Positions 42,225 to 45,579 of a DNA stretch of 46,433 nt are shown here, piece after piece. The stretch's first letter is position 1. Every line of letters begins with the position of its first letter. The position numbers were made by a program, and so were the translations under genes. Where the stretch lies: NCBI GenBank assembly GCA_903889965.1, contig CAISZM010000046.1, positions 1-46,433 of the forward strand, written 5' to 3'. This DNA is from an uncultured Elusimicrobia bacterium (GTDB lineage: Bacteria > Elusimicrobiota > Elusimicrobia > Elusimicrobiales > UBA9959). Below the pieces are notes generated by a model. That model worked only from the letters and a program-made list of their open reading frames with translations. It had not been told where the DNA came from and did no database searches.

Positions 42225-43328
42225 ATGAGAATTTTGATAGCAATGAACGCCTTCAAGAACACGCTCACCGCGGCGCAGGCCTGCGATGCCGCGGCGGCCG
42301 GCGTCCGCCGGGCTCTCCCCGGGGCCGTCATAGAAAAACTCCCCATTTCGGACGGCGGTGACGGGCTGATAGAGGCGCTTGCCCCTGTGCTGGGAGGCAA
42401 GATAAGAAAAAGTTCAGTGGAGGGACCCCTCGGCGGTGTCGTGCGCGCGCGCTGGCTGATGGCCGGGCGCACGGCCGTGATAGAGATGGCCGAGGCCTCA
42501 GGGCTCAAACGCATGGGCCCGGGCGCACTTCGCCCCCTGGACGCCTCCACCCGGGGCGTCGGACAGCTTATACTTGCGGCCTCGGCCTCGGGGGCGCGGG
42601 AAATAATAGTGGGCCTTGGCGGCAGCGCCTCCAACGACGGCGGGGCCGGGTGCGCGGAGGCTGCCGGGTTTTTCCTGGCAGACGCCTGCGGGCGCGCGGC
42701 TGTTCCCGGGGCGCGCGGATTGGCCGAGCTTGAAACCGTGGAGCTGGTGCGCCCGGGAGCGGGCCTCGGCGGCGTGAGGATGATCGGACTTGCCGATGTA
42801 AAGAACCGTCTTTGCGGCCGCCTCGGTTCCGCCAGGGTGTTCGGGCCGCAGAAAGGCGCGGGGCCCCGCGAAGTGGTGTTCATCGAAAAGGCGCTGCGCC
42901 GGTACGCCGGGGTTATTAAGGAAAGCCTTGGTGTGGATGCGGGCTCTCTGCCCGGCGGGGCCGCGGCGGGAGGATTGGGGGCCGGGTTGGCCGCTTTTTT
43001 CGGTGCGGAACTGGTGGACGGGGCGGCCTACGTGCTCGGAAAGCTGGATTTCGAAAGGAAGCTGAGACGCGCCGACCTGTTGGTGACCGGGGAAGGGTGT
43101 TTCGACAGGCAGACTTTTTACGGCAAGGCCCCCGGCGCCGCGATAGGGGCGGCCCGCAAGCTGGGGAAGCCTGTTTGGGTGCTCTGCGGCCGCTCAGAGA
43201 TGAAGAACCGGCGGCTGCTTGCCCGCCTGGGTATCCTTGGTGTGGCGGAGTCGGGCCTGACCCCCTCTCCCCGCGCCGCGCTGCGCCTGGCGGCCGCGCG
43301 GGCCCTGACCGCCAGTCCCGGAAAATAA
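42225..43328 (+). CDS. Glycerate 2-kinase (GlxK/GarK family)
   Basis: 367 residues. MRILIAMNAFKNTLTAAQAC corresponds to the family opening K-I-V-I-A-P-D-S-F-K-x-x-L-x-A. KLPISDGGDGLIEAL, GLGGSASNDGGAGCAEAAGF, LADVKNRLCG, FGPQKGAG and DLLVTGEGCFDRQTFYGKAP are the conserved sites. It phosphorylates D-glycerate to 2-phosphoglycerate in the cytoplasm. The frame is open far upstream, but family alignment fixes the start at ATG 42225. There is no obvious ribosome binding site. Divergent from the radical SAM gene. Confidence 0.92.
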   Translation: MRILIAMNAFKNTLTAAQACDAAAAGVRRALPGAVIEKLPISDGGDGLIEALAPVLGGKIRKSSVEGPLGGVVRARWLMAGRTAVIEMAEASGLKRMGPGALRPLDASTRGVGQLILAASASGAREIIVGLGGSASNDGGAGCAEAAGFFLADACGRAAVPGARGLAELETVELVRPGAGLGGVRMIGLADVKNRLCGRLGSARVFGPQKGAGPREVVFIEKALRRYAGVIKESLGVDAGSLPGGAAAGGLGAGLAAFFGAELVDGAAYVLGKLDFERKLRRADLLVTGEGCFDRQTFYGKAPGAAIGAARKLGKPVWVLCGRSEMKNRRLLARLGILGVAESGLTPSPRAALRLAAARALTASPGK

Positions 43329-43400
43329 ATTAGGCATCAAGATCTAATTTGTAGACTTCACCACTCCCGCCTAAAAAACAGAAATAGTACCAATAACTTT

Positions 43401-43987
43401 GGGCTTAGAGCCGCAGGGTAGCCAAGTCGGTGGCGCCCAGGGTATACCCATGCCCACCCGGACCGGGGAAACCCAATGCCTGCGCACGCGGACTACGCTT
43501 GCAATGTGACATCGGACGCTATCTTGTGCCGTATTGTTCGCTGAATTGTGTCACTTCGTTCCACCCAGGGCCTATGGCCATCAGACGGCCTTGCGTCTAT
43601 ACGGCTGGATACACTGCGGTGTCCGTAGTGGCGCATAACTGCGGCAAAGTCCACTCCTTTCCGCAAGGGTGTTCATGGGTATACCCCGGACACCCCTCCG
43701 CAAAAACGATGTTAGTCAAGTTTCTCTGGTTGGCAATAAAATGGATTCTGAGCGGGTGGCTGGAGGTTAGGGTTCTGAAGGCCCTCGCGGAGGCCGCCGG
43801 TTGCATAAGCCCGGCGGCCGAGTGTGGAGCGCGGCTACGGTGTAGCCGACGCGGTGCCTGAAGAACCCTAACCTTCAGGCAGGACCCGCGAACCAAAGCG
43901 TGGACCCCGGGTGGACTACGCTAACCTGCGTTACTCATGGACACAATTAGCTGTATTATCGCTTGGCTACCCTGCGGTTCTTAACCC
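43401..43987 (+). ncRNA. Large structured RNA candidate, about 587 nt
   Basis: No credible protein lies in 43329-44166. Ends pair: CCGCAGGGTAGCCAAG (43411-43426) with CTTGGCTACCCTGCGG (43962-43977), 16 perfect pairs, extended outward to 43401/43987 with small bulges. 5' domain: GGGTATACCCATG (43440-43452) with CATGGGTATACCC (43674-43686), plus CACCC/GGGTG (43455-43459/43667-43671) and GGTG/CACC. Inside it: GGG-GAAA-CCC (43465-43474), GTGACA/TGTCAC (43506-43511/43549-43554), AGACG/CGTCT, TGCGG-AAAG/CTTT-CCGCA (43640-43665). 3' domain: GCGGGT/ACCCGC (43752-43757/43884-43889) and a 17-bp helix with GGTTAGGGTTCT/AGAACCCTAACC (43765-43776/43862-43873), enclosing GGCCGCCGG/CCGGCGGCC and CGGCTAC/GTAGCCG. 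G-U pairs (43410/43978, 43763/43875) favour the plus strand. Not recognised as RNase P, tmRNA, 6S or SRP RNA. Confidence 0.8.
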
Positions 43988-44070
43988 GAAGACGGACAGC
44001 CCCTTCCCCCGCAAAGGGTCCGGGTTGAGGGGAACCGGAGCGGGACGCGGATAACGGACATACGGACATG

Positions 44071-44100
44071 TTGAGTTATATATTCGTTATTTAATAATAT
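44071..44100 (+). promoter_or_regulatory. Candidate promoter of the phosphohexomutase gene
   Basis: TTGAGT (44071-44076), 18-bp spacer, TAATAT (44095-44100), in an AT-rich block that contrasts with the GC-rich RNA region before it. Predicted start near 44107, 60 nt before the ATG at 44167, which has AAGGA at 44153-44157. Between the RNA and this promoter a stem AACCC/GGGTT (43983-43987/44022-44026) with GGAC/GTCC could form, competing with the outermost pairs of the RNA's terminal helix. Confidence 0.5.
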
Positions 44101-44166
44101 ATATGCGTTGCGCGAAACCGGCGGACCGGCTCCCGCAAAGGCGTTGGTTTACAAGGAAATGTATAC

Positions 44167-45579
44167 ATGAGCTCTCACCAGACAAGCCATATTTCGTTCG
44201 GCACGGACGGTTTTCGCGGCATAATCGCCCGGGACTTCACCTACGACGTTGTGCGCAAGACGGCCCAGGGTATGGCCGACTATATCTCCTACAAGTACAT
44301 GCGCACCGAAAAACCGTCGGTGGTCGTGGGTTATGACCGCAGGTTCATGTCTGAAAGGTTCGCCCGCACGGCGGCGGAAACGCTCGCGGCGAACGGCCTC
44401 ACCGTTACCCTTTCTTCCACCCCCCTGCCTACGCCGGCGATCAGCCTGCTGACCGTAAAAGGCTACGGCCTCGGCGTGATGATAACGGCCAGCCACAATA
44501 ATCACTATTATAACGGCATTAAGGTAAAGCAGGGCGGCCGCTCGGCCCCGCCTTCCGTCACCGCCGAAATAGAAAATTATATAGTGAAAGCCGTCCCTAT
44601 GAGGACGGCGGGCGTTCACGTGCCTACCAAGGATTTCCTGCCGGCTTACGTCGAGTACATTAATTCCAAAGCGGCCGCCTCCAAGATGCTCGGGAAACTC
44701 CCGGGGCCGGTGGTAATAGACTTTATGCACGGCGTCGGAGCCGAAACCTCCGGGGCGCTTTTCAACTCCAAAAACATATCAAAACTGCGCGAGCGGCATG
44801 ACCCGCTGTTCGGCGGCATGGCGCCCGAGCCGGTGGAGAAGAACCTCCAGGGGCTGGTGGCCGCGGTCAAGAAGGGCAAGGCCGTGCTCGGCCTGGCGAT
44901 GGACGGCGACGCCGACCGCTTCGCGCTCGTTTCCGACAAGGGCCAGTATATGACGCCCTGCCAGACCGCCCCGTTGCTGCTTTCCTATCTGCTTTCAAAG
45001 GGCCCGCTGAAAGGCAAGATCATACAGGCCGTATCCATGGGGTACCTGACAAAGCGCATAGCCCGCGCCGCCGGGATCACGTTCGAGGAAACTCCGGTGG
45101 GGTTCAAGTATATAGCTGAAAAAATGCTTTCGGAGGACATAGCTTTCGGCGCGGAGGAGTCGGGCGGCTACGCCTGGAAGGGCAATTTGCCGGAGCGCGA
45201 CGGGGCGCTGACCGCTCTGCTGGCCATAGAGATGGTCATAAAGACGGGGAAGCCGGTTTCCGCCCTTTACTCCGAAATAGAGAAGAAGTACGGCAAGTCG
45301 TGTTTTGTGCGCAGGGATTTTTCCCTGGAAAAGCCCATTCCCAACAAGCATTCTTTCGCGGTCAAAATAAAGAAGAAGCTGCCGAAGACGCTGCTGGGGC
45401 GCAAGATAACGGAAACCAATACGATAGACGGACTTAAAATAGTGCTGGATAACGACTGGTGGGTGCTGATGCGGCCTTCGGGCACCGAACCGCTGCTGCG
45501 CACCTATGCCGAGACCGACAGCCAGGAGAATACTAAAAAATTTCTGGACCTGGCCTTCAAGCTGGCGGACTGCAGGTAA
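44167..45579 (+). CDS. Phosphoglucomutase/phosphomannomutase family enzyme
   Basis: 470 residues, four-domain alpha-D-phosphohexomutase. Motifs in order: [34 protein letters not shown], the catalytic phosphoserine loop [16 protein letters not shown], metal loop [17 protein letters not shown], sugar-binding [12 protein letters not shown] and phosphate-binding [14 protein letters not shown]. It interconverts hexose 1- and 6-phosphates; glucose versus mannose cannot be decided. Own promoter upstream; followed 56 bp later by metK. It could supply nucleotide-sugar precursors for the surface polysaccharide genes (inference). Confidence 0.93.

Follow-up and report, generated by a model that had tools for sequence, protein, structure and literature searches.

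A composite foldback repeat, probably MITE- and REP-like, between a glycerate kinase and a phosphohexomutase gene in Elusimicrobia

Introduction

MITEs are short, non-coding elements with terminal inverted repeats and a target duplication of fixed length. Other mobile or recombining sequences are better recognized by their shape. In integron attC sites the folded shape is conserved over the stem sequence and one strand is preferred, and the double-hairpin elements of fungal mitochondrial DNA are mobile hairpin repeats of compact genomes whose stems vary while their shape is kept. Among bacterial repeats, the REP, REPIN, and BIME sequences (GTAG- and CGTC-tagged) are described in PMC3733652 as dispersed, multicopy palindromes that lie mostly outside genes. 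According to the same source, REPs have units of 20-40 bp, frequently form dimers of opposite orientation, also between unlike partners, have spacers of about 20-100 bp, and are few between divergent genes.

Here we describe two structured repeat units, A and B, from an uncultured Elusimicrobia bacterium. The window, by which we mean the whole 46,433-nt stretch of DNA that was analyzed, contains a feature at positions 43401-43987 that a preliminary description had proposed as one large structured RNA of the OLE, GOLLD, or ROOL class. We think instead, with a probability of about 0.8, that the feature is an old composite copy of a clade-specific, non-autonomous foldback family (MITE/REP-like) of Elusimicrobiota that moves as DNA. 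The A/B element is MITE-like in its working and forms divergent dimers in the style of REPs, and within the open-licence literature on Elusimicrobia repeats the family is apparently undescribed. Neither a strong fold nor strong covariation suffices to tell a functional RNA and a foldback transposon apart, and repeats of this kind can therefore pass for new RNAs of large size. The family further offers a natural experiment, in which hundreds of copies retain a branched fold as their stems diverge. For insertion sequences (IS), PMC9208149 places Elusimicrobia among the phyla in which fewer than 30% of genomes contain one, with few genomes surveyed.

Results and Discussion

The folded region consists of two units and an insert

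The feature lies between two plus-strand genes, and Pfam confirmed the neighbors named earlier: a glycerate kinase upstream (42225..43328, start inferred; PF02595, E 1e-102) and a phosphoglucomutase/phosphomannomutase downstream (44167..45579; PF02878-PF02880 and PF00408). To the right of the element, positions 44071-44105 hold a TTGAGT...TTTAATAATATATA stretch that is probably the promoter of the mutase gene; many relatives have a similar stretch ahead of this gene.

As the preliminary description had argued, the region folds well beyond chance. The plus strand of the feature reaches -285.7 kcal/mol compared with -226.26 on average for shuffled sequences (sd 6.16; z -9.65), and none of 100 shuffles folded as well. 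The minus strand folds almost equally well (-279.2 kcal/mol, z -8.04, 0 of 100 shuffles equal), so the plus-strand preference that had been read from G-U pairs is weak in the window's single copy, and it is only across many B copies, considered below, that it holds. The three long helices were recovered where they had been placed, as inverted repeats of 30 nt (43397-43426/43962-43991, 87% complementary), 28 nt (43432-43459/43667-43694, 82%), and 26 nt (43757-43782/43856-43881, 85%).

Two structured units occupy this interval. Unit A (43397..43702, minus strand) aligned with positions 2-168 of the 169 in the A profile (nhmmer, E 2.8e-28) and is about twice the usual A length because of an insert. 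Comparison of copies places the extra sequence, which includes a repeat that we call C, at 43473..43651 (approximate limits); when mapped on fetched stretches, other A copies jump from about 43502 to 43653, and window positions 43473-43590 match L010:2201-2318 at 89%. An A+T-rich spacer (43703..43749), delimited by sequence and copy comparison, separates unit A from unit B (43750..43899, plus strand), which has a long stem, P1, with variable arms and two inner hairpins bearing CTTGCATAAGC-type and ACGGTGT loops. The covariance-model core of this B unit (43758-43880) scored 127 bits, and its near copies in the same genome span 43750-43894 at 91-92% identity (blastn).

The outermost helix proved to be of another kind. 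The left outer inverted-repeat region (43393..43431, plus strand) opens with ATAACTTTGGGCTTAGAGCCGCAGGGTAGCCAAGTCGG and reverse-complements the motif found at the 3' end of many units; its start at 43393 is our reading from comparison with other copies. In many B units the sequence past the 3' end reads CGACTKGGC...CTGCGG...CCCAAAG, which by eye is the reverse complement of the feature's opening sequence, and the right outer arm (43962..43991) lies on the minus strand. The helix described at 43411/43962 thus joins two inverted copies of an end motif that is common to many units. The right end of the window copy lacks a GTTAC terminus, which weighs against the foldback reading. When 25 genomes were scanned with a strict version of the window's end motif, 3 gave sites, 6 in all, and the pattern is too narrow to be informative.

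The strong fold would suit a single large structured non-coding RNA spanning 43401-43987, transcribed and folded as one molecule, and so would the covariation within both units and the G-U departures that favor one strand of B. None of the Rfam family models, OLE, GOLLD, and ROOL included, matched the window at its gathering score, and a permissive search of 43340-44160 returned a single unrelated match (E 4.1). The two units, however, fold on opposite strands, and the window copy carries an insert that is missing from other A copies. The distribution of the units, described next, leaves one large RNA very improbable.

The units are dispersed separately within one clade

Parts of the feature occur apart from each other, both in its own genome and in relatives. 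The own-genome assembly (87 contigs, 90.2% complete) gave 69 blastn matches to 43340-44160 at E up to 10, self and weak matches counted. Matches with E no greater than 1.6e-6 are spread over 20 further contigs, where several sit at the contig's end, and they correspond to differing parts of the query. Thirty-eight fetched stretches resolve the modules B (43750-43894), A (43393-43502 joined to 43653-43731), and C (43473-43590), the last of which lies inside unit A in the window copy.

Comparison of the locus among relatives also argues against one molecule. Elusimicrobia or Elusimicrobiales genomes supply the best-matching relatives of the downstream protein, with identities of up to 85%, and in 37 of 43 such loci the DNA fetched upstream contains the kinase. 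With the kinase in place, the gap between the two genes is 161-265 bp at 28 of these 37 loci and longer at 9, whereas it measures 838 bp in the window; among the nine longer gaps, those at L070 and L071 hold B units of their own.

Blastn with the whole feature found matches in 20 of 41 related genomes, all of the same genus. By covariance model, all 16 genus genomes examined carry unit B, with 9 to 101 copies each and at least 639 together, a lower bound since at most 141 candidates were scored per genome. Unit A has at least 332 copies in 15 of the 16, 100 of them in the related genome G006. Neither unit was found in nine sister-family genomes. A phylum-wide search for B with stricter filters (149 genomes, E up to 1e-4) gave matches in 14 genomes, of which six belong to the genus, six to other genera of the family, and two to another family; the matches were weak in one other-genus genome, which had a single match, and in both genomes of the other family. 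Three listed genomes of the family gave no B match in this stricter search, and blastn found no match to the element in plasmid and phage collections.

Repeat C was observed as a third dispersed repeat, at L022, L023, L024, L025, and L010 as well as in the window, and its boundaries seem to be inverted ends of the GCCRGRCATGGGGTTGC type. Four of its copies are close to the end of a contig, probably because the assembly broke at repeats. A 30-bp unit, GTGGAGCGAAGCGACACAACTCAGTGAACG, occurs once in the window, within the C insert, and forms a tandem array of 5.6 copies at an end of contig 9 of the same genome (L034:1989-2156); L027:7117-7241 is related to it.

Units face away from each other and lie chiefly between genes

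We counted as adjacent any A or B units within 320 bp of each other, in fetched loci that were chosen by match and not at random. One of the 29 adjacent pairs repeats another from the same place. Among the 28 distinct pairs, 27 are divergent (14 B-B and 13 A-B, the window's pair belonging to the latter), one is tandem, and none is convergent. Neighboring units are thus divergent pairs that fold on opposite strands, as would not be expected of a single RNA. Dispersed, multicopy, and mostly extragenic palindromes, frequent dimers of opposite orientation that also join unlike partners, similar spacers, and scarcity between divergent genes are all features that the A/B units share with REPs as described in PMC3733652. 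Their size and form differ from those of REPs, since the units are about 120-170 nt long and fold into a branched shape; the Y1/RAYT transposase is absent from the own genome; and, in a young subfamily, the inverted ends are long and 8-bp duplications are present.

Gene context was assigned for 116 B copies, 114 of them distinct (two identical pairs, at L096 and L192), with a home-made gene caller that is approximate. Six copies lie inside predicted ORFs, and 10 more are at the edge of a locus. The remaining 100 fall into 74 co-directional, 20 convergent, and 6 divergent gaps, compared with 147, 29, and 37 of the 213 background gaps longer than 60 bp. Copies of the proposed family would settle chiefly between genes and rarely between divergent ones. 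In the co-directional gaps, 30 B copies are sense and 44 antisense. This lack of sense bias, together with the close spacing within operons, is evidence against a dedicated RNA gene, the large one included.

The lack of bias within operons also weighs against the possibility that single A or B units are small regulatory or stabilizing RNA elements, or structural DNA of benefit to the host, with movement explaining their arrival and nothing more. Such a role would fit the strand preference of B, the conserved loops, and eleven B pairs in different species that share similar DNA on both flanks, often with several compensated changes (in a total that includes duplicate loci and one within-locus pair). 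Shared-site pairs of this sort could reflect old retention under constraint or repeated insertion at one spot; a retained function, in place of recent movement, would tell against the foldback account. Their members are scarcely closer than random copies, however (mean similarity 0.78 versus 0.74, with 4 of 11 above the random 90th percentile and 8 of 11 above the median), and young copies carry many uncorrected one-arm changes. We therefore consider a host role unlikely and favor the foldback family.

Stem arms change together within units

Covariation in homologues had been suggested as a check of the structure, and the helices within units A and B do covary strongly. B copies from the fetched loci (43 matches), folded singly, share one shape, a long P1 followed by two hairpins, of which one has a loop resembling CTTGCRTAAGC and the other CACGGTGTG. 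The models of the two units have 124 and 127 positions, that of B being built from 20 copies. Across 76 distinct B copies, 92.2% of cells pair and 29 of 33 pairs changed on both sides, with a covariation of 0.536 compared with 0.155 when shuffled and at most 0.112 when slid. Because the B alignment is fitted to the model, we also compared the arms without a structure model; P1 arms of 114 B copies had a mean score of 12.7 within copies and 5.7 between copies. In the 17 A copies compared, the paired fraction of cells is 94.5%, double changes are seen in 23 of 36 pairs, and covariation is 0.406 compared with 0.163 when shuffled. An outer stem beyond P1 is perhaps real in a subset of B copies (21 of 114 score at least 8, versus 4.8% of mismatched pairs). 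A pseudoknot in unit A, seen by eye between TTGCG and a CGCAA loop, was dropped because a TTGGG change has no match in the loop.

If a unit must keep its fold to continue spreading, both stem arms would change together. The paired changes are observed directly, and spreading may well be the force that selected them. Thirty young A copies in G006 carry 9 compensated doubles, 3 uncompensated doubles, and 77 single-sided changes, where by our estimate about 2 doubles of any kind would be expected by chance; departures from the consensus amount to 3.7% at paired and 6.7% at unpaired positions. We read this as fresh copies mutating freely while the spreading lineage retains pairing.

Pairing could also be restored by mutation itself. 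Template switching is a process that corrects imperfect palindromes, and it would yield perfect pairing with no selection on the fold. Whole arms that vary between copies yet match within a copy agree with such a process, as do the excess of compensated doubles even among young copies and the absence of a G-U preference among distinct events in young A copies (5 G-U to 4 A-C). The 77 single-sided changes that persist in the 30 young copies point the other way, and the excess of G-U over A-C in B, together with conserved unpaired loops, suggests selection on a folded strand. We regard template switching as the sole source of pairing as rather improbable, and selection during spread of a foldback family as the better account.

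In 1768 aligned positions, model-free comparison of the B arms found 74 G-U-type, 17 A-C-type, and 135 other mismatches, so that across B copies the G-U type is the more frequent on the plus strand. Counted as distinct contexts, G-U and A-C departures stand at 71 to 38 over all columns, at 47 to 11 when five weak or commonly wobble columns, picked after the data were seen, are omitted, and at 17 to 6 in the two inner hairpins. This excess favors selection on one folded strand, either RNA or single-stranded DNA.

A further idea, which we hold to be doubtful, is that A and B are the recognition structures of an undescribed shape-reading mobility system in which a folded single strand (ssDNA or RNA) is compulsory for copying. 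If true, it would explain the hypervariable self-complementary arms, the conserved loops, the strand-biased G-U tolerance of B, and the near-strict divergent pairing. By description, the units resemble attC sites in keeping shape over stem sequence and in their preferred strand, and differ from them in being dispersed and, in G006, flanked by target duplications. Likewise by description, they resemble double-hairpin elements, in which stem sequence differs and shape is kept, although those are organelle elements. The identity of the enzyme would reveal whether A/B mobility depends on shape.

A young subfamily has transposon-like ends and 8-bp duplications

The most direct evidence of movement comes from G006, in which a young A subfamily has GTAACTRCTCAGG inverted ends. 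The end pattern GTAACTRCYCRGG, with at most one mismatch, matched this genome 168 times compared with 14 for a reversed control. The fetched loci together gave 26 candidate end pairs flanking A or B units. In 9 of these, 7 or 8 of the 8 flanking bases are the same on both sides, as expected of an 8-bp target duplication, and in 2 others 6 of 8 agree; no shifted-register control reached 6. These 11 pairs all belong to A units of G006, and none to a B unit. A looser list of 62 G006 end pairs, which includes chance pairs and is thus the less strict count, has 14 duplicated at the right register (8 exactly), whereas each of six shifted registers gave 0. The 8-bp duplication of young A units is of the transposase type and marks DNA transposition, and such ends and duplications are a further argument against a single large RNA.

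At the divergent doublets, 0 of 27 have the duplication at 7 or 8 of 8, the window's included, one doublet (L011) ending at a contig end. This result, like the confinement of all duplications to G006, weighs against the proposed account, and we therefore infer the movement of doublets and B units from their dispersal and shared architecture. MITEs are likewise short and non-coding, and their terminal inverted repeats and fixed-length target duplication are matched by the young A units of G006. The conserved branched inner structure, the covarying stems, and the divergent two-unit form set the A/B units apart from MITEs.

Taken as a member of this family, the window copy would comprise two structured units that face away from each other, bounded by the inverted end motif, with a third repeat inserted into its left unit. 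Copies would move as DNA, cut or copied by a putative transposase that recognizes inverted ends starting GTAAC and produces 8-bp target duplications. Young single A units of the sister genome bear the marks of such a mechanism directly, and B units, doublets, and the window copy would presumably have followed the same route.

Several candidate mobilizers were sought and set aside, negative results that also tell against the proposed account. IS66 elements combine an 8-bp duplication with GTAA ends, which suggested them here, but the IS66 transposase (PF03050) is missing from all 25 genomes searched, 16 of them of the genus. Neither Y1/RAYT (PF01797) nor the IS110 family was found in the own genome (90.2% complete). 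Among the listed end-pattern matches in G006, about 100 of the 168, no autonomous element was recognized; one candidate region (C125) had an inner ORF of the GreA/GreB type and no transposase, the real element being 216 bp. The own genome holds four tyrosine recombinases. Its contig 65 (L186) encodes one group II intron-type reverse transcriptase with RVT_1 and GIIM domains, and a search of this locus at E up to 0.01 gave no B unit. In G006, the inner part of two A units (L261 and L265) is replaced by sequence with an inverted repeat of its own (AAAAAGGTGCCAGCCTCCTTTTT...AAAGGAGGCTGGCACCTTTTT), and these look as if one repeat had inserted into another.
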